From IMG/VR virus record IMGVR_UViG_3300036795_000052, positions 1 through 51,836 of that record: a stretch of DNA of 51,836 nt; one strand, 5' to 3'. How positions within the stretch are numbered: the stretch's first letter is position 1; each line of letters begins with the position of its first letter. Source of the stretch: a virus. Below are positions 2,524 to 51,454 of the stretch, in pieces. The notes under the pieces are model-generated. The model was not told the DNA's origin, searched no databases, and saw only the letters and a list, made by a program, of their open reading frames with translations. Made by a program: the position numbers and the translations under genes.

Positions 2524-2781
2524 CTACATGAACTGCTTCGCTAGTTCATCGTAGTCTTGGCGCGCGTTGCCTGCTCCACCTTTCAAGTACTGGTCGAGCC
2601 ATGACTTGAATGCTTCGACGTCGAAGTAAACTTTCTTGTCTCCTTCGACCTTGACTGTATTGATGCGCCCTGATTTGGCGTATCCATACATCATCTGGGG
2701 CGTAATGGTACGATTGATTCCTTTCGCCTCGAGCACGCGATTTGTAACTTGCGCTGCTGCGTAAGGAGTAATTGTAGCCAT
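2524..2781 (-). CDS. Small DNA-binding-like protein, paralogue B, 85 aa
   Basis: Same core as the protein at 1921: ITPYAAAQVTNRVLEAKG, PQMMYGYAK, VKVEGDKKVYFD and FKSWLDQYL, without the Thr/Asn/Asp tail. The length suits a single compact DNA-binding domain. A 46-bp near-perfect palindrome lies 43 bases before the start codon, an arrangement expected of a self-controlled regulator. Its role is inferred from this layout, not from a recognised family. Confidence 0.7.
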   Translation of the reverse strand: MATITPYAAAQVTNRVLEAKGINRTITPQMMYGYAKSGRINTVKVEGDKKVYFDVEAFKSWLDQYLKGGAGNARQDYDELAKQFM

Positions 2782-2823
2782 GATGATCCCTCTCTTTGGT
2801 TTCCTAGCTCTTTACTAGGAGAC

Positions 2824-2869
2824 AATGAATATTGACTATAGTCTATATAGACTATTGTCTATATTCATT
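2824..2869. promoter_or_regulatory. 46-bp palindrome, candidate operator
   Basis: Left half 2824-2846 and right half 2847-2869 pair at 21 of 23 positions; the two mismatches are both T-T. The core contains TAGTCTATATAGACTA, and GTCTAT/ATAGAC hexamers recur. It overlaps the likely promoter of the gene at 2524-2781. A dimeric or tetrameric regulator site is the simplest reading; a replication-initiator site is an alternative. Confidence 0.75.
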
Positions 2870-2885
2870 ATCTTCTCTCAAAGAA

Positions 2886-3107
2886 CTAACTATTGCACGA
2901 GCACGATCCATTTGTACTCTTAGCTTCGAAGCATATCTCGCATATATTCTTCTTTGAGATATCGAAGCCACCTGAGAACTTCTGATCTGCTTGCTGATCT
3001 GCTAGATCAGAATTGAAAGCTTTCTTTCCTTCATAGATATGAACGAGATGTTGAGTCTTGTTGAATCTATGAGTAGTCTCATATTGACTCCTCTGAGAAT
3101 TGAGCAT
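2886..3107 (-). CDS. Small Cys-rich hypothetical protein, 73 aa
   Basis: Starts after a good AAGGAG site and is more AT-rich than most of the genome. The C-terminal CEICFEAKSTNGSCSC holds four Cys that could form a small zinc site. It is driven leftward from the promoter at 3208-3236 and diverges from the structural operon. Function unknown. Confidence 0.65.
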   Translation of the reverse strand: MLNSQRSQYETTHRFNKTQHLVHIYEGKKAFNSDLADQQADQKFSGGFDISKKNICEICFEAKSTNGSCSCNS

Positions 3108-13710: not shown

Positions 13711-14196
13711 GTGGCCTCTGCGCACATTACGACTTCGCAGGTCCAAGCGTGGCTTGAGACCACGAAGTGCACCATCTCGGCGATCGATCCCAATCTGGAA
13801 GCAGAAGTTTCTGGTGAGGTACTTGGTCGTCTGACTCAGACCTACAACGAGTTCGTTCCAGCCTGGGTCGACTCGACGACTACACCAGCTATCGTGCAAA
13901 AGGTTATTGCCATGATGTACGCTGGCTGGTTCTACGATCGGCAGTATGCGGAGGTAATCAGTCAGGAGCCTGGGCAGTCTTATGGTCTTACCCTTCGGAC
14001 TTGGGCTGCCCAGCTTCTGGCTGATATCATTCGGGGCATTGTTGCCATCGAGGAAATCGAACCTAACCAGCCTGCAGTAGCGCCTGTGTTCTACCCAACG
14101 GACGTAAGCTCTACATGGGATGCTTGGCGGACTAACACAGACTGTAATGACCAGTCTCTAGGTCCTGCAAAGTTCGGTATGGGTAAAATTTTCTAG
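13711..14196 (+). CDS. Head-tail connector, Mu gp36-like
   Basis: 161 aa, GTG start after GGGAGGTG. A helical protein with a TQTYNEFVPAWV segment and VQKVIAMMYAGWFYDRQY, resembling DUF1320/adaptor proteins that sit below the portal. Gene order (capsid, this, virion morphogenesis, terminator) supports it. Confidence 0.6.
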   Translation: MASAHITTSQVQAWLETTKCTISAIDPNLEAEVSGEVLGRLTQTYNEFVPAWVDSTTTPAIVQKVIAMMYAGWFYDRQYAEVISQEPGQSYGLTLRTWAAQLLADIIRGIVAIEEIEPNQPAVAPVFYPTDVSSTWDAWRTNTDCNDQSLGPAKFGMGKIF

Positions 14197-31624: not shown

Positions 31625-31880
31625 ATGCTGCCTCCGGATGATGTCCTAGTGCTGCGAATACGTTCATGATGTAGATGAGGCAGTCGGTTGCCTCATCAAC
31701 CATCTCCGCTTGAAGGTCCATACGCTTGTGCGTACCGCGTTCGACCTTCTTGACGAGGTTGGCTAGTTCGCCTACTTCGCCAGCCAGTGCAAGAACTTGA
31801 AAGGGTAGGTCAGTTGCGGTTTCAGGAAACCACTCCTTACTATCCTCCGAACACTGGATATATAGGTCGTCTAGGTTCAT
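31521..31880 (-). CDS. MazG-like nucleotide pyrophosphohydrolase
   Basis: 119 aa. The MazG pattern is clear: ALAGEVGELANLVKKVERG and EMVDEATDCLIYIMNVFAALG, with the metal-binding Glu and Asp residues, and the KRHRNRRRFG end. It hydrolyses (d)NTPs to monophosphates and may cleanse the pool of modified or alarmone nucleotides. Encoded beside folE. Confidence 0.8.
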   Translation of the reverse strand: MNLDDLYIQCSEDSKEWFPETATDLPFQVLALAGEVGELANLVKKVERGTHKRMDLQAEMVDEATDCLIYIMNVFAALGHHPEAAYERKRHRNRRRFGPTGSTSGGGRDIHPRVQFTPK

Positions 31881-32473
31881 CTGATACTCTCCATGAATTC
31901 TGCTTTCGCAGTTCGGTCGTGGTCTGAGAACACTCCTAGCATAGATGCGGTTCGCGTCATTGCTCGAAGCGCCTTTGCTCCACGAATTGACATACAGGTG
32001 TGATGTGCTTCCATCACGACAGCGACACCGAGCGGGTTGAGGAGCACCATCATGTGTTGAGCAATTCGTTCGGTGAGCTCTTCCTGAGTGTTAAGAGCTC
32101 GACAGTGCTGCTCGACTAGCCTCGGAATCTTACTCAGGCCCACGACCTTACCATCTGGAATGTAGCCGACGTGCGCTACGCCTATGAACGGAAGAACATG
32201 ATGTTCGCATAGCGTTGCGAAGTCGATGTCCTTAACGACTACCATGTTCTGGACATCTGATTCGAAGGTCGTGAACTTAAACACTTCAGGCGTCGTTAGC
32301 TGCTTCAGAGCTTCGACAAAACGCCTTGGTGTAGCACCCTGGTCGGGAAGCTGCGTATTGAGAGTAGCTACGCGTCGGAGAAGGATCTCGGCAAGCTCTT
32401 CGTCTTCGAACTGACTGCCCGATTCAAATTCCACGCTTTTGAGCTCCGTACACGTAGTTATGGACCTGAACAT
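31877..32473 (-). CDS. folE: GTP cyclohydrolase I
   Basis: 198 aa. First step of preQ0 synthesis from GTP. Zinc and active-site motifs are CEHHVLPFIGVAHVGYIP, GLSKIPRLVE and EAHHTCMSIRGA. It overlaps queE by 50 bases; the four genes folE-queE-queD-queC are contiguous, which shows that the 7-deazaguanine branch and not folate is the purpose. Confidence 0.93.
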   Translation of the reverse strand: MFRSITTCTELKSVEFESGSQFEDEELAEILLRRVATLNTQLPDQGATPRRFVEALKQLTTPEVFKFTTFESDVQNMVVVKDIDFATLCEHHVLPFIGVAHVGYIPDGKVVGLSKIPRLVEQHCRALNTQEELTERIAQHMMVLLNPLGVAVVMEAHHTCMSIRGAKALRAMTRTASMLGVFSDHDRTAKAEFMESIR

Positions 32474-33113
32474 TGAGCCGCCAAGGAAGATGGTAACCCT
32501 TGACGAACTCTAGGATCTGGGGTTCGAAGTTCTTACCCCAGACGGACCCGACATAGATCTCGATGATCGTTTCCTTGAGATACTGTATCCAGAGTAGTCG
32601 GGCTACTTCCAAGTCCCTGAGATCCGACACGACGAACTTGATTGCGTTCCCGAACATGTCGATGCTATCGATGTTCGCGATACGCGTCTTGTGATACGGA
32701 TCTTCTTGCGAACTAGGAAGCTTCCAGTCCATTACGAATGTAGCGTCCAGACCGAAGATTGGACGCGTACCGTTCGTGAAGACCTCGAAGCCGAGTACAG
32801 GAATTGCTAGACGACACAGACTAAGCAGATCTTCGAGATCATCATGATTTTGGAGCAGAGGCTCGCCGCCCGTGATGCATACGTTCCTCGCCCCTGTGGA
32901 GTGTGCTTCTTTGATGATGCGCTCGGACAGGTTTCTTGGTGTGATTTCGACTTGCTCTTCGCGATAGAGCTTCGGCTTTACTGCATACGGCGTATCGCAA
33001 GGCCAGCCCGGACAGCGAAGGTTACATCCGGCGAACCGGACGAACTGAGTGAGCATACCAACTCGAGGACCTTCTCCCTGAGTTGAAATGTAATGTTCGA
33101 GTAGCCTAAGCAT
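32424..33113 (-). CDS. queE: 7-carboxy-7-deazaguanine synthase (radical SAM)
   Basis: ATG at 33113 with GGAG six bases upstream; 229 aa. Radical SAM cluster segment GCNLRCPGWPCDTPYA: the spacing is C-x3-C-x4-C, where most members have C-x3-C-x2-C. CITGGEPLLQ follows. Converts 6-carboxytetrahydropterin to 7-carboxy-7-deazaguanine. Confidence 0.9.
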   Translation of the reverse strand: MLRLLEHYISTQGEGPRVGMLTQFVRFAGCNLRCPGWPCDTPYAVKPKLYREEQVEITPRNLSERIIKEAHSTGARNVCITGGEPLLQNHDDLEDLLSLCRLAIPVLGFEVFTNGTRPIFGLDATFVMDWKLPSSQEDPYHKTRIANIDSIDMFGNAIKFVVSDLRDLEVARLLWIQYLKETIIEIYVGSVWGKNFEPQILEFVKGYHLPWRLNVQVHNYVYGAQKRGI

Positions 33114-33552
33114 TGCTACTCCAGGTTGCACAGTTGACGGAAGTTTCCCAGACCGTGACGTTCGTGAGTGGACAGGCGAAGAAGCCTTTTGCCCAGCTGC
33201 CTATCTCCGTGGCGAAGTTCTCCGTTGTAGGATCTCCATTAAAGACTGCGCGTCCTGGTAGGGCTAGCTTCTCGACGTTACCGTCTACGTCGTAGACGTA
33301 ACCGATCACTTGCGACCAAGGGTCGCGTGCGTTTAGGAGTACACGATGGTCGTACTGCGTATCGAGCCACTTGCGGAAGTGCTTCTTGATCATTCCGAAG
33401 TCAAGAGTTTCTAGGAGTCCGTGATTGTCGACTTCACCACCGAGTTCGAGTTCGACCCACCAGCTGTGTCCGTGAATGTTCTGACACTTGCCTGGTGTCT
33501 CATAGAGACGATGAGCCATCTCGACGTTGTGCTTGACCTTGATAGTCTGCAT
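33106..33552 (-). CDS. queD: 6-carboxytetrahydropterin synthase
   Basis: ATG at 33552, coupled by TAATG to queC; 148 aa. Zinc histidines in MAHRL and NIHGHSW, catalytic Cys in KCQNIHGH, YDHRVLL, and PTTENFATEI with VWET. Second step of preQ0 synthesis. Confidence 0.93.
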   Translation of the reverse strand: MQTIKVKHNVEMAHRLYETPGKCQNIHGHSWWVELELGGEVDNHGLLETLDFGMIKKHFRKWLDTQYDHRVLLNARDPWSQVIGYVYDVDGNVEKLALPGRAVFNGDPTTENFATEIGSWAKGFFACPLTNVTVWETSVNCATWSSNA

Positions 33553-34256
33553 TACTTGATTACCGTCTTCCAGAAAAGATAGTCCTCGTAGATCGTGTCG
33601 TCTTCGACACCCGCTTCGTCGATAGCTTCGAGACGCTCGACGCAGGTTCCGCACTTGCCGCAGTGGAACATTCCACCTTTGTAACACGACCAGGTCTTGT
33701 CGATCGGAACTCCGTGCATCTCTGCGTCGCTGGCGATATCGGCCTTAGTCTCGTAGATGTAAGGCGCGAAAATCTTGAAGTGGTCAGGAAGGAAATCTTC
33801 GTTACCAACCCTGATTGCGTGTTCGAGACTTCCGAGGAAGTCTGGCCTGCAGTCAGGATAGATCTCGTGGTCGCCGGCGTGCACAGCCGTTGCGACGAAC
33901 TCGTCGTACCCGGAGGCAATAGCAGTGCTGGTTGCGATCGAGAGCATGACCATGTTACGATTCGGAACGACCGTCTGCTTCATGTTGTCTTCGGCGTAGT
34001 GACCTTCCGGAACCTCGATGACAGGATTCGTGAGGCTTGAACCGCTACTTTTCAGGATGTCAGCCCAGTCGTTAAGCTTGACGACGTTGTGCGTGACGTT
34101 GAGCATACGACTGACCGTCGCTGCTGCATCGAGCTCCTTCTTGTGTCGCTGTCCGTAGTCGAACGACAGAGCGAGAACGTCGTGACCTTCGTGCACGAGC
34201 TTGTACAGCAGCGTCGTGCTGTCGAGTCCACCAGAAAGAATTACGATACCCTTCAT
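33552..34256 (-). CDS. queC: 7-cyano-7-deazaguanine (preQ0) synthase
   Basis: 234 aa from the second of two ATG codons, which is better spaced from AGGAG. PP-loop ILSGGLDSTTL, DYGQRHKKE, VVPNRNMVML and zinc cysteines CYKGG/HCGKCGTCVER. Makes preQ0, the last free base before insertion. No queF is seen, so the pathway should stop at preQ0. Confidence 0.95.
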   Translation of the reverse strand: MKGIVILSGGLDSTTLLYKLVHEGHDVLALSFDYGQRHKKELDAAATVSRMLNVTHNVVKLNDWADILKSSGSSLTNPVIEVPEGHYAEDNMKQTVVPNRNMVMLSIATSTAIASGYDEFVATAVHAGDHEIYPDCRPDFLGSLEHAIRVGNEDFLPDHFKIFAPYIYETKADIASDAEMHGVPIDKTWSCYKGGMFHCGKCGTCVERLEAIDEAGVEDDTIYEDYLFWKTVIK

Positions 34257-36415
34257 CATGTCTCCTGAAGTAGTGTGTTGTACGATATACCTCGACCCTC
34301 GCCACCCTTAGTGATGAGACCTCGGTTGACGAGAGTGTTCTCGATCTCAGACATTTCCTTCGCGGTTAGATGGTATGTCTGCATGACTCGAGAACGTGTC
34401 ATTGTCTGCTTCTTCTGGATCGCGTTCAGGACGAGCGTGATCTTGTGTTCTGCCTCAGACCTGCCAACGTTGAGTACAATCTCCTGAGCATACCTCCGCC
34501 ATTGATCTCCGAATGAGGCTGCCTTGAGTATGTCATACTCTGTGACTTCGACCGGTCCTTCTTCGGTTCTAGCTGCAGCCAAGAGCATCGCACACTTGAG
34601 CATGCTGGCAGCGAGCCGTGCATTGGTGGGGACAACAACATCGGCCATCTCTCCTGCATCTAGACCTATCTGCGATAGTGTCTGGTCGAGAATATTGTAC
34701 CGATGCCAAGCGTCTTGAGACATCCTGATCTCTTGCGCCTGACGCGTCATGCCAACTACTTTGCCATTGACACTCACAGGCATGTTATTGCTATGCCTTT
34801 GGCTGATGTCTCGAAGCTCGGCGAGTATCCGATCGCGGCCCTCGATGTTGAGCGCCACAGGGGGTCCCAAAGGTTTGACCCTGGAAATGTCACTCTCGGC
34901 TGTGATGATGACGAACCTTGGTAGGAAGCCCGACTCGACATGTTCGAACGAAAGGATCCGAGTCATCTTGGACTTGATACCTCCGCCGAAGATAATCAGC
35001 CGAGGATCTCGAACGATGATCTCTTCTTTCCGCAGTAGACGCTTTTGAGTTTTGCCATCGTAGATCTTGGCGAAGAACTCTGGCATACCTGCCATGTAGT
35101 CCTTCTTGTGCATCTGGTCTACTAGGCCTGTAAACTCGTCTCGTAGGAAGACAGACGGTTGTCCTGATCGGGCGGATAGTGCTGTCGTGAGACCTTCGAG
35201 TGATCCGTCCGTTGCCATGAGGATACTCTCATCGACCTCCATAATTAGGTCCATCGCCAAGTCCATGGCTGTCGACTTTCTCGTCAGGGTCGTATCCGCT
35301 AGGAGTAGAAACCAGATGTTCGGCTGAACTGTCCCGAAGGATGTCGGCAGCTTGATAGACCCAGCTAGTACCGACGACAAAGCTACGAACGCTCCTGCTA
35401 CGTGATACTGCGGTGCTGCGTCCCCAACTGTCTTGGCCCACTCGATATACCTGTCTACGAAGGTTGGTGGAAGTTCCTTGATCAGGGTTTTTTCTGAATC
35501 CGACAGAAGTGAGATCTCTCCTGACGGAGGCATGGAAGACTGTTTACGGTTAGTATCGAACCTGGCTCTTGCGCGGCAGATATCTTTCCATAGACGTATG
35601 TCTTCATCAAACTTGTTACATGAAGCGTCTCTGCATACTTGAAACGTTTCTGCCATGGAAAGCAACGCTTCAAAGCAGTACATTTCCAGACGGAATAGGA
35701 GCGCACTGCGATCAGCGCCCTCTGCTAGCTCCCTGTGGAAAAGTGTGAACGCGGCACCGTTTATCTTGTGTCGAACATCTTCTAGAACCTCTTGACCAGT
35801 TCGAACTGTTAGGTCCGGGAAAGGAATATCGAGGTACTCGTACCCTTCGACTTGAGGGTACATATAGAAGTCATCGACACTGTAGATGAGTTCTGGATCC
35901 CAGACGAGTACTTGGACGTACGGTGGCTCTGCATCGCCATACTTAAAGTTCCGTGTTCCCGGTACTCTCAGGAGTTGGGTGAGGTCCCATCCCGATCGGT
36001 CGCTTCCTTCCTGTGCGTGTCCGTAAGCGATTCGTCGTGAGATGGCTTCTGCTGTCTCGGCATCGACAGGCTTGTCAAGAGTCCATATTGCTTGATAGCG
36101 GCCTGGGCTTGTCTCGAGCGATATCGACGGTTGCACATGTAGATTATCAGGGTGACAATCGTCCAGGTCAGACCAAACACACTGCACCAGACCAACATGT
36201 TTCTTGTCTCGTTTCTTTTCCGTAAGTAGCTGCGGACAGAAGTAGACGTTTTCTACCATGGTTTTCGACCTGACGAGCTCGGCAACGTCGCCAAAGTCTT
36301 CTGGGAACTTAAAGAATCGTTCTTGAAACTGACCACTCTTCTTTCTGGAAGCGATACACATGTATCCCTCTGTATCGCCGTATGCTGACAGGAAGAAGCC
36401 TTTCAAGCCAGGCAT
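34256..36415 (-). CDS. Primase-helicase (AEP-like primase + DUF3987)
   Basis: 719 aa. The N-terminal part has the archaeo-eukaryotic primase carboxylate motif CVWSDLDDCHP and SPGRYQAIWTL; the middle is a DUF3987-type P-loop ATPase (LADTTLTRKSTAMDLAMDL, then FLRDEFTGL as Walker B). The end is a winged-helix-like segment (MTRSRVMQTYHLTAKEMSEIENTL). Likely the replisome primase-helicase. Confidence 0.8.
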   Translation of the reverse strand: MPGLKGFFLSAYGDTEGYMCIASRKKSGQFQERFFKFPEDFGDVAELVRSKTMVENVYFCPQLLTEKKRDKKHVGLVQCVWSDLDDCHPDNLHVQPSISLETSPGRYQAIWTLDKPVDAETAEAISRRIAYGHAQEGSDRSGWDLTQLLRVPGTRNFKYGDAEPPYVQVLVWDPELIYSVDDFYMYPQVEGYEYLDIPFPDLTVRTGQEVLEDVRHKINGAAFTLFHRELAEGADRSALLFRLEMYCFEALLSMAETFQVCRDASCNKFDEDIRLWKDICRARARFDTNRKQSSMPPSGEISLLSDSEKTLIKELPPTFVDRYIEWAKTVGDAAPQYHVAGAFVALSSVLAGSIKLPTSFGTVQPNIWFLLLADTTLTRKSTAMDLAMDLIMEVDESILMATDGSLEGLTTALSARSGQPSVFLRDEFTGLVDQMHKKDYMAGMPEFFAKIYDGKTQKRLLRKEEIIVRDPRLIIFGGGIKSKMTRILSFEHVESGFLPRFVIITAESDISRVKPLGPPVALNIEGRDRILAELRDISQRHSNNMPVSVNGKVVGMTRQAQEIRMSQDAWHRYNILDQTLSQIGLDAGEMADVVVPTNARLAASMLKCAMLLAAARTEEGPVEVTEYDILKAASFGDQWRRYAQEIVLNVGRSEAEHKITLVLNAIQKKQTMTRSRVMQTYHLTAKEMSEIENTLVNRGLITKGGEGRGISYNTLLQET

Positions 36416-49281: not shown

Positions 49282-49490
49282 ATAACTTCCCTTCTCGAAC
49301 GCTCGAGGCGGCCGGTGTAGTACTTCTTGCCATCTTCCGTCTGGATGAGATAGCGCTTGTGACCGAACGAGAACAACCGTCTCTTGATAAGACGTACAGG
49401 AACGCGCTCGAGCCATATCCTGCGAATATCCACAGGGGCGCTGCTGTTCTGTCCAGGGTCGACCATGAGGTAAATGCTACCGACTTTCAT
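49278..49490 (-). CDS. Basic hypothetical protein, 70 aa
   Basis: MKVGSIYLMVDPGQNSSAPVDIRRIWLERV: basic small protein with DIRRIWLERVPVRLIKRR. Overlaps both neighbours by four bases. Contains octamer at 49430. Confidence 0.55.
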   Translation of the reverse strand: MKVGSIYLMVDPGQNSSAPVDIRRIWLERVPVRLIKRRLFSFGHKRYLIQTEDGKKYYTGRLERSRREVI

Positions 49491-49726
49491 CGCGGTGTAC
49501 CTCCGATCGTGTTCCTGAGAGCGTCGTCGATTTCGGTGCCGCGCTCGTTGAGTGCATTCAACGTGACGGTGATGCTCTCCAGCTGTGCCTTGAACACTGC
49601 CGTCTGCTGCTTGATTGCCGTCGCGATAGCCAGCAACGCGAGGCCGACGGGATAATCTGTATTGCTGAGGTCCGTTGTTTCCAACGACTTCTTCGCGTCG
49701 GTGATGCTGACACTAATGTCCGGCAT
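49487..49726 (-). CDS. Helical hypothetical protein, 79 aa, translated behind ribozyme HHR-3
   Basis: ATG at 49726 with AGGGAGAAG upstream; MPDISVSITDAKKSLETTD, then a helical core. The frame continues to 49765 but that part lies in the hammerhead. Its ribosome-binding site pairs with the 5' side of ribozyme stem II, so ribozyme folding and cleavage should affect its expression. Confidence 0.65.
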   Translation of the reverse strand: MPDISVSITDAKKSLETTDLSNTDYPVGLALLAIATAIKQQTAVFKAQLESITVTLNALNERGTEIDDALRNTIGGTPR

Positions 49727-49734
49727 TACTTCTC

Positions 49735-49798
49735 CCTGTGGCTTCTCGTCAGGCACGCCCGCCACAACGTACGACGCCTCCCGGCGTTTCGAATCAGG
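49735..49798 (-). ncRNA. Type II hammerhead ribozyme HHR-3
   Basis: Minus strand order: stem II 5' side (CCUG-A-UUC), GAAA (49790-49787), stem III A-CGCC with GGGA loop, GUC (49775-49773), stem I GUACG/CGUGC, CUGACGA (49752-49746), stem II 3' side (GAA-GCCA-CAGG). Cleavage is expected between 49773 and 49772. Stem II needs an internal loop, so it is the weakest of the three, but all core bases are present. Lies between the genes at 49799 and 49726. Confidence 0.82.
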
Positions 49799-50340: not shown

Positions 50341-50492
50341 TGCCTCACGAGCTCCTTTCCTGCCGGCTGAGCCGCGGCTATCATAATTCCCCAACCCACA
50401 GGGAGAAAGAGTACCGTGGCGCTGATAGCCAGTCCTAGTATTGCACCGAACACAGCTAGGACGATAAGTAGGATGAACCTAACTGTTGGCAA
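50274..50492 (-). CDS. Small membrane protein, 72 aa
   Basis: TTG at 50492 with AAGGA upstream: LPTVRFILLIVLAVFGAILG and LAISATVLFLPVGWGIMIA give two closely spaced hydrophobic helices. The last 66 bases overlap the next gene in another frame. Probably real from its membrane profile; start uncertain. Confidence 0.5.
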   Translation of the reverse strand: MPTVRFILLIVLAVFGAILGLAISATVLFLPVGWGIMIAAAQPAGKELVRQWSSTSHSDSSTGSSRTTPRGR

Positions 50493-50856
50493 GTAGCATC
50501 CTTGCTTCGGAAATGAAGCTGTTGATGTTGGCGAGCTCCATGTACAGGGCCGCGAGGTCTTCGCTCTCGTCGTACTGGTCGTCGCTGACGAGCTCCGATT
50601 CCGCACCCTTGGCGTCTGCGTACTGCCTGTACGTCAGGCCGAGTCGCGATACGGCCTTAGCTTCGGCGACGAAGCCCTCGAGCTCGACGCACGTCGTCCT
50701 AGCTGTCCAAGTCAGGTGTACGAGGTCTGCGAGTGGGACGTTGAAGACTCGTTCTTCGTCTTCTGGCTCGGTGTATAGGTGCAGATTCGTCTGCATGTTC
50801 ACCGACAGCGTCACCTCGATGTTGTCGTCGACTTTCTTGAACGTGAATGGTTCCAT
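50479..50856 (-). CDS. Hypothetical protein, 125 aa, translated behind ribozyme HHR-1
   Basis: ATG at 50856: MEPFTFKKVDDNIEVTLSVNMQTNLHLYTEPED; beta N-terminal half and acidic helical C-terminal half. Its GGAG ribosome-binding site lies in stem II of HHR-1. Confidence 0.65.
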   Translation of the reverse strand: MEPFTFKKVDDNIEVTLSVNMQTNLHLYTEPEDEERVFNVPLADLVHLTWTARTTCVELEGFVAEAKAVSRLGLTYRQYADAKGAESELVSDDQYDESEDLAALYMELANINSFISEARMLLANS

Positions 50857-50860
50857 GGTA

Positions 50861-50920
50861 CTCCGATCTCGTCAGGCCAGTTCCTTACTGGCGACGGCTC
50901 ACGCCGTTTCGATCGTGGAG
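50861..50920 (-). ncRNA. Type II hammerhead ribozyme HHR-1
   Basis: Minus strand: stem II 5' CGAUC (50915-50911), GAAA, stem III A-CGGC closed by a GUGA tetraloop, GUC (50895-50893), stem I GCCAG/CUGGC with loop UAAGGAA, CUGACGA (50875-50869), stem II 3' GAUCG then GAG pairing with upstream CUC. Cleavage expected between 50893 and 50892. All conserved core nucleotides are present and all three stems close. Confidence 0.92.
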
Positions 50921-51085
50921 TTAGTGGAAGCTGTCGTCGACGAGCCTGTCGTTCTCGGTCAGAAGCCTGACGATTTCTGCCTGGTCGTCCAGGTCGAGCT
51001 TCTTCAGGTGGTCGACGATCTGCTGCAGCGACAGCGCCTGTGCAGTGTTTTCGGTGGCTATCTGCATGTCTACGACTCCGTACAT
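50921..51085 (-). CDS. Small helical protein, 54 aa, between two ribozymes
   Basis: ATG at 51085 after UUUUAGGAG: MYGVVDMQIATENTAQALSL, then QQIVDHLKKLDLDDQAE. Its stop (TAA, 50921) abuts HHR-1 and its ribosome-binding site is in stem II of HHR-2, so after both cleavages it would be left as a monocistronic RNA. Function unknown. Confidence 0.7.
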   Translation of the reverse strand: MYGVVDMQIATENTAQALSLQQIVDHLKKLDLDDQAEIVRLLTENDRLVDDSFH

Positions 51086-51091
51086 GGTCTC

Positions 51092-51151
51092 TCCTAAAAC
51101 TCATCAGGCAGGTATGTCCTGCGACCGGCGTAAGCCGGTTTCGTTCTAAGA
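51092..51151 (-). ncRNA. Type II hammerhead ribozyme HHR-2
   Basis: Minus strand: 9-pair stem II (UCUUAGAAC with GUUUUAGGA, two G-U), GAAA (51142-51139), stem III A-CCGGC with UUAC loop, GUC (51125-51123), stem I GCAGG/CCUGC with loop ACAUA, CUGAUGA (51107-51101). Cleavage expected between 51123 and 51122. The 5' side of stem II contains the UAG stop of the upstream gene and the 3' side contains AGGA of the downstream ribosome-binding site. Confidence 0.93.
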
Positions 51152-51454
51152 CTCTTCGGCCTGTAGCTTCCGTTCGGCATCGAACCTATTCATCCGCTCT
51201 CTGCGGATGACTGCCGCGACGCGCTCTTCCCTGGGCCTGAAGGAGCGTATCTCGAGTGCACCCTGACGATTAATAAGGCTCAGGTCGAGTGTCGCGGCGA
51301 GGTCTGCGAATGCGCTTACTACATTCGCGCCGAGTTCTTTGCTAACATCGAGCCACGCGATCGTCCGATACTTCTCGTGGTCCGGTAGCTCCATGAGCCT
51401 GCGGCTCATTTCGACAGCGCCGAGTTCCTTCTCGATCTCTTCGTTCTTCGTCAT
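51146..51454 (-). CDS. Hypothetical protein, 102 aa, ends inside ribozyme HHR-2
   Basis: MTKNEEIEKELGAVEMSRRLM; soluble, with YRTIAWLDVSKELGANVVSAFADLAATLDLSL. Its stop codon forms part of stem II of HHR-2. Function unknown. Confidence 0.65.
   Translation of the reverse strand: MTKNEEIEKELGAVEMSRRLMELPDHEKYRTIAWLDVSKELGANVVSAFADLAATLDLSLINRQGALEIRSFRPREERVAAVIRRERMNRFDAERKLQAEES

Follow-up and report, generated by a model that had tools for sequence, protein, structure and literature searches.

A putative type II hammerhead ribozyme as the probable 5′ leader of a viral gene, and a pseudoknot-less hammerhead form arrayed between phage genes

A 51,836-nucleotide viral DNA (positions 1 to 51,836 of IMG/VR record IMGVR_UViG_3300036795_000052; the whole stretch is referred to here as the window) carries, on its minus strand, a sequence that we call HHR-1, between the stop of a gene for a 54-aa protein and the start of a gene for a 125-aa protein. 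Judged by its sequence, HHR-1 is a complete type II hammerhead, beyond chance. Its sequence, fold, compensatory conservation and placement are established. We consider it probable that HHR-1 is a self-cleaving ribozyme, provides the 125-aa gene with its 5′ leader and cuts the operon into short, hairpin-capped mRNAs.

We infer the cleavage of HHR-1, the separation of the mRNAs and the effects on their stability or translation. Once the leftward operon has been transcribed, HHR-1 would cut the RNA after position 50893. The upstream mRNA would retain its stop codon and would have the stem III hairpin as its 3′ end. The downstream mRNA would carry the stem I hairpin and a 5′-OH at its 5′ end, and its 36-nt leader would run up to GGAG and ATG. 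As HHR-1 lies exactly between two genes, each of them would get its own mRNA. Two further hammerheads in the window, HHR-2 and HHR-3, would act likewise at adjacent junctions, so that one long transcript becomes a set of short hairpin-capped mRNAs. A 5′-OH and terminal hairpins slow decay by nucleases that sense 5′ phosphates.

HHR-1 and its neighbours in the window

HHR-1 has every hammerhead core base, with a three-way junction, the GAAA strand, a UH cleavage step and the CUGANGA strand (Table 1). It is the type II permutation, in which stem II is open and stems I and III are capped. When the 75 nt around HHR-1 were folded without constraints, the hammerhead was both the minimum-energy and the centroid structure (−25.6 kcal/mol, z −2.36). 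The minimum-energy fold has a 4-bp GAUC/GAUC helix, a bulged AC and a 5-bp ACUCC/GGAGU helix. A preliminary description of this DNA had GGAG paired, as it is in this fold, but through CGAUC/GAUCG continued by CUC/GAG. That register is an alternative to the one found here, and in the folding model ACUCC/GGAGU is the stronger lock on GGAG. The same description correctly placed a GNRA loop on stem III (GUGA, read directly) and the 5′ end of HHR-1 at the stop of the 54-aa gene, where ACTCC shares the last A of TAA. Its stem I loop, UAAGGAA, is shortened here to AAGGA, as the closing U-A pair had been counted as loop.

Table 1. Positions of HHR-1, its parts and the neighbouring features in the window
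Feature	Position	Strand	Description
HHR-1	50860..50921	−	Type II hammerhead with SD-sequestering stem II extension; predicted cleavage between 50893 and 50892
Upstream stop TAA	50923-50921	−	Read directly
ACTCC	50917..50921	−	Partner of GGAGT; first A doubles as the final base of the TAA stop upstream
AC bulge	50916-50915	−	Between ACTCC and GATC
HHR-1 stem II 5′ strand GATC	50911..50914	−	Pairs with 50865-50868
GAAA core	50910-50907	−	
HHR-1 stem III CGGC-GUGA-GCCG	50895..50906	−	4 bp, GUGA loop
U C before predicted cut	50894-50893	−	Predicted cleavage after 50893
HHR-1 stem I GCCAGU-AAGGA-ACUGGC	50876..50892	−	6 bp, AAGGA loop; 5′-terminal hairpin of the predicted 3′ product
CUGACGA core	50875-50869	−	
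HHR-1 stem II 3′ strand GATC	50865..50868	−	
GGAGT	50860..50864	−	Includes GGAG (50864-50861), the SD of the 125-aa gene; pairs with ACTCC when uncleaved
Start ATG of 125-aa gene	50856	−	
HHR-2	51092..51151	−	Type II hammerhead, 9-bp stem II; predicted cleavage after 51123; leader 37 nt
HHR-3	49736..49794	−	Type II hammerhead, RF02276 38.3 bits; predicted cleavage after 49773
125-aa gene	50479..50856	−	Downstream of HHR-1; leader after predicted cut 36 nt
54-aa gene	50921..51085	−	Flanked by HHR-2 and HHR-1; relatives yielded no homologue
102-aa gene	51146..51454	−	Upstream of HHR-2; stop paired within HHR-2 stem II

A strict scan for type II hammerheads, based on the core and three stems, found three matches on the minus strand of the window and none on the plus strand. 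The same scan matched once in 8.3 Mb of Markov control sequence, and about 0.012 matches would therefore be expected in the window. No type I or type III hammerhead was found in the window. To score the matches we used a covariance model (R1) built from an alignment (A1) of 88 sequences from which the clade of the window was excluded. It gave HHR-1 48.1 bits (E 8e-11), HHR-2 42.7 bits (E 2e-9) and HHR-3 30.1 bits (E 6e-6), with no further match in the window at E ≤ 10. Rfam 15 detected HHR-3 alone, just above the RF02276 gathering cut-off of 37 bits, and left HHR-1 and HHR-2 unmatched even at E ≤ 10. Loop I of HHR-3 is able to pair with the tail of that ribozyme. In HHR-1 and HHR-2, the longest complement between stem-loop I and the tail, sought as evidence of a pseudoknot, is 3 bp. 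These two ribozymes are members of a pseudoknot-less form that Rfam mostly misses.

Stem II of HHR-2 pairs the whole of the upstream stop UAG and the AGGA of the Shine-Dalgarno (SD) sequence. With a longer 5′ flank, unconstrained folding of HHR-2 reaches its energy minimum in a structure other than the ribozyme. The predicted leader of HHR-3 is 46 nt long, up to the ATG at 49726. A consensus scan found no promoter directly before HHR-1 or HHR-2 on their strand. PHROGs and Pfam yielded nothing useful for the neighbouring genes, although the TFIIE beta core domain of Pfam matches the 54-aa orphan at 21.3 bits, below the cut-off of 28.1, and this orphan may be a small protein that binds DNA. No relatives of the 125-aa and 102-aa proteins were found in viral contigs, nor any DNA relatives of the window among phage records.

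Three other features of the window were noted in passing. An antisense ORF of 203 aa (50486-51097, plus strand) spans HHR-1 and most of the 54-aa gene and is probably a by-product of codon bias. A long imperfect hairpin lies within an ORF at 13955-14027 and matches a microRNA family below its cut-off; it is probably chance or a DNA structure. At 31877-34259, adjacent minus-strand genes look by eye like queC, queD, queE and folE, which would point to deazaguanine DNA modification.

Relatives of the window were defined by their DNA polymerase and comprise 13 IMG/VR contigs. Type II hammerheads occur in three of the 13, with four in G001, two in G006 and one in G013, and several of the other contigs are fragments or were model-searched in part; the strict scan accounts for seven matches in these relatives. 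Between HHR-1 and its counterpart in G001 (L026), six of 14 pairs have changed on both sides and none is broken. The hammerheads of G006 (L031 6947-7767) and G013 (L033 13042-13071) have a long stem III, compared with the short-loop forms of the window. In G001, a sigma-70-like site (L029 9988-10017) lies shortly before a hammerhead in a wider gap. This weak evidence suggests that the ribozyme there may shorten a primary transcript instead of separating two genes.

A pseudoknot-less form of the type II hammerhead

To place HHR-1 among other viral hammerheads, we made a structural collection with two DNA patterns run over viral contigs, each returning at least 120 stretches and biased to the stems of the pattern. 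At least 332 unique candidates were obtained, and filters on stems and core kept 308 of them on 217 loci. Because the strict scan demands paired stems, percentages of pairs are partly set by construction; the absence of a fifth pair and the position counts are unaffected.

Among the matches listed, the 308 ribozymes split into form A, or class A (209, stem I of at most 18 nt), and form B (the other 99, with a longer stem I), and stem I is exactly 17 nt in 189 of all 308. Form B shows complementarity between loop I and the tail that exceeds that of permuted tails among the matches listed, and corresponds to the published pseudoknot form. The same search in form A found pairing no better than with permuted tails, again among the matches listed. 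Within the listed form A matches, stem I usually has 6 bp and a UNANK-type pentaloop, and stem II has 4 bp in 200 of 209. Directly beyond stem II, 198 of 203 listed matches carry A on the 5′ strand and 151 carry A.A; a fifth stem II pair forms in six of the 203. In alignment A1 the fifth pair is absent from 83 of 88 sequences. The Rfam gathering cut-off recovers one of 20 form A ribozymes (20 loci submitted). Form A is rare in cellular genomes, where one pattern, with a 17-nt stem I, matched 11 stretches in 257 Gb.

HHR-1 matches the class A model but does not have the 4-bp stem II ended by A.A; C and G stand there instead. Its loop I is AAGGA, compared with the UNANK pentaloop of the class. 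HHR-2 has an A-U pair where class A has A.A. The available text of PMC11300833 places the tertiary contact needed for fast cleavage between stems I and II. The stem III loop of HHR-1, which the preliminary description had named together with the stem I loop as being of a size that can make this contact, is irrelevant to it. The departures of HHR-1 in loop I and stem II probably sit where the stem I-II contact lies. The cleavage rate of HHR-1 is uncertain because loop I and the end of stem II differ from the class consensus; that the RNA cuts itself as a hammerhead ribozyme is, from its sequence, very probable.

Arrays of these ribozymes are present in cultured Streptomyces phages, which were reached by weak BLAST similarity followed by model search. 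We count 11 model matches in Janus (10 within the stretch read and one outside), eight in Puginator, six in Wentworth (a weak seventh, E 0.08, was left aside) and six in phiRKBJ001. These counts merge two sets of results, one of which alone gives 10, 6, 6 (one of them weak) and 6, respectively. The annotated features shown for these phages include no ribozyme. Mazun and FP_Brigit, reached by weak BLAST similarity, are not counted as carriers, as the stretches examined gave no model match at E ≤ 1. Up to 11 hammerheads per record occur in ten further IMG/VR records, which were chosen as rich.

All 28 ribozymes counted over the four phage stretches lie in gaps between CDSs. The end of the ribozyme is 11-14 nt before the annotated CDS start in 10 of 10 cases in Wentworth and phiRKBJ001, and 19-30 nt before it in 16 of 18 in Janus and Puginator. 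The distance to the previous CDS varies in the four phages, from −3 to 630 nt. In an 8.4-kb stretch of Janus (NC_054660.1, L297), each of the nine CDS gaps of at least 60 nt contains a hammerhead. Wide gaps that contain no ribozyme number three of 11 in Puginator and six of 11 in both Wentworth and phiRKBJ001. For strict-core ribozymes, the predicted cleaved leaders of the cultured phages are 42-68 nt long. One Janus gap (2637-3003) holds two hammerheads, perhaps around an unannotated small gene.

Ribosome-binding site, placement and alternative readings

In the window's clade, uncleaved RNA is also predicted to hold the SD sequence in a helix with nucleotides at the stop of the preceding gene, from which cleavage or a ribosome positioned on that stop would help to release it. 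HHR-1 could be mainly a switch, in which the SD sequence stays locked until cleavage or upstream translation opens the helix, although we regard this as unlikely. The folding predictions are consistent with a switch. The probability that the HHR-1 SD sequence is unpaired is 0.01 in uncleaved RNA, 0.39 after cleavage and 0.46 when the region covered by a ribosome at the stop is masked. Bases of the stop lie within the locking helix of both HHR-1 and HHR-2. In the five clade ribozymes tested, the SD sequence starts 4-5 nt after CUGANGA, compared with a median of 15 nt for class A, where an SD sequence was assigned among the matches listed.

With the ribozyme core enforced, pairing between the SD sequence and the 5′ flank is 0.99 in HHR-1, 0.80 in HHR-2, 0.83 in L015 (G001) and 0.65 in the G006 ribozyme. 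Counter to the switch, it is weak (0.60) in L026, the orthologue of HHR-1. The clade mean of 0.78, compared with 0.44 when flanks were swapped in from form A, gives P 0.0012 for n=5 in a post hoc test that was chosen after HHR-1 had been seen, and that has HHR-1, with its start set by hand, as one of its five members.

The lock is not enriched more widely. A class-wide test covered 232 ribozymes with an SD match of at least 4, a start within 60 nt and enough flank; HHR-1 was not among them, as the automatic start picker took a later GTG. Among the matches listed, an SD sequence that is locked and then free occurs in 39 of 149 class A ribozymes compared with 32.0 with swapped flanks, which is no enrichment, and in 19 of 83 of form B compared with 17.4. 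Nor was enrichment seen in Wentworth (P 0.15), phiRKBJ001 (0.26), Janus (0.81) or Puginator (0.31), in a test that dropped three of 10 Wentworth and phiRKBJ001 ribozymes lacking a strict core.

On this modelling, the SD lock has perhaps been selected in the window's clade; it is not the general purpose of these ribozymes, and what generalises across them is placement. We tentatively entertain a combined view, which we also think unlikely. The clade would have fused hammerhead and ribosome-binding site into one switch, such that translation of the second gene needs self-cleavage or a ribosome finishing the first gene. It would then be a particular instance of a practice widespread among phages, in which rows of pseudoknot-less hammerheads divide operons into hairpin-capped mRNAs. 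If the SD lock of HHR-1 works, it would be a natural self-cleaving gene switch.

Placement itself could be read in favour of either neighbouring gene. Among the matches listed, the stop of an ORF of at least 60 codons lies 0-8 nt before GAAA in 226 of 304 ribozymes (four of the 308 had short flanks), compared with 3.2% of random same-strand positions. Such abutment would be expected if selection acted on the upstream gene, with the stem III hairpin and its cyclic phosphate replacing a terminator, a reading that we consider quite improbable. Counter to it, in the cultured phages the downstream start is the one that lies at a mostly fixed distance, and some ribozymes there lie 244-630 nt past the last annotated CDS.

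The hammerheads conserved between the window and G001 also keep their downstream gene. One hammerhead directly precedes the G001 counterpart of the 125-aa gene, whose product is a homologue at 34% identity (E 4e-15), and another directly precedes the gene for the homologue of the HHR-3 gene product (49487-49765; 54% identity). The gene before HHR-3 differs from the gene before its G001 counterpart. Upstream of HHR-1, phmmer found no homologue of the 54-aa protein in the relatives, and BLASTP gave two chance-level matches elsewhere (E 3.0 and 4.8). A resemblance seen by eye to the protein upstream of the G001 ribozyme was dropped on these results.

When ribozymes on different loci were paired, among the matches listed, 69 pairs had a homologue downstream only, 34 upstream only and 12 on both sides. 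As these pairs are not independent, we also counted by families, with 27 downstream only and 14 upstream only among the same matches. The fixed downstream spacing, the comparison with G001 and the pair and family counts favour the 5′ leader. The preliminary description gave HHR-1 and HHR-2 together the role of trimming the 54-aa gene into its own mRNA. The two ribozymes do flank that gene, and the interval of 230 nt agrees with the coordinates. Trimming would be the minor half of the role, because between the window and G001 the ribozyme stays with the downstream gene and no homologue of the 54-aa gene was found in the relatives.

That HHR-1 is an inactive relic or a chance match is very improbable. 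It does lack two features of the class consensus, but its core bases are intact, its orthologue shows compensatory changes and the model match has the E value given above. Least probable of all is that HHR-1 and HHR-2, as two hammerheads around one short gene, excise the 54-aa gene as a 230-nt RNA for subsequent circularisation in the manner of a retrozyme, since the ribozymes of cultured phages flank single genes and gene blocks alike and spliced or circular products were sought but not detected in the work described in the available part of PMC3088659.

Comparison with known systems

Tandem hammerheads between prophage genes were described in 2011, with mRNA processing proposed as their role (Perreault et al., PMC3088659, here and below as far as its available text goes). 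The tandem ribozymes were active in vitro, and one array also in E. coli; the role of phage hammerheads was called unclear in that report (PMC3088659). An enrichment of hammerheads near genes of Mu-like phages is noted in the accessible part of PMC10085705, according to which the association of hammerheads with phage genes was still without a known reason in 2023. The type II hammerheads of Perreault et al. (PMC3088659, RF02276) share with HHR-1 the core, the permutation and the occurrence of several per phage between genes. HHR-1 and HHR-2 differ from the published type II consensus (PMC3088659) in having no pseudoknot between loop I and the tail and in their stem I of 5-6 bp with a 5-nt loop. 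In most of class A, stem II also departs from it, with exactly 4 bp and a terminal A.A.

In the open-licence literature, we found no phage hammerheads described as fixed-distance leaders or in Streptomyces phages. As far as that literature shows, four elements are new: the form A consensus, as a group mostly under the Rfam cut-off; the geometry that combines an abutting stop with a fixed leader; the arrays in cultured Streptomyces phages; and the SD sequence within stem II in the window's clade. Members of form A may be present among the 2011 sequence sets. The geometry, in which the stop abuts the core, the distance to the start is mostly fixed and the downstream gene is kept, amounts to a testable claim that phage hammerheads are 5′ leaders. 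Cultured Streptomyces phages with 6 to 11 hammerheads make this claim testable in culture.

In leaders that sequester a ribosome-binding site, such as riboswitches and thermosensors, the SD sequence is paired with an upstream anti-SD strand. HHR-1 would differ from these in the trigger for release, which would be RNA cleavage or a terminating ribosome in place of a ligand or heat.

Closer in position is HHphage of the haloviruses HF1 and HF2, a hammerhead that lies 13 nt ahead of the start codon of a phage gene and for which a transcript 5′ end was mapped at most 3 nt from the cleavage site (PMC3088659). HHphage differs in its variant core and its occurrence in an archaeal virus, and an array is not described for it in the available text (PMC3088659). 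The synthetic element RiboJ resembles HHR-1 in being a hammerhead before a ribosome-binding site that trims the leader and leaves a 5′ hairpin; in E. coli it raised transcript about twofold and protein two- to tenfold (PMC6206723, available portion). RiboJ differs in its synthetic nature, its origin in a plant satellite RNA and its separate hairpin (PMC6206723). In HHR-1, stem I itself would be the terminal hairpin, and the SD sequence lies at or in stem II. By this analogy, our best reading is that a leader of the HHR-1 type would be like a natural RiboJ insulator.
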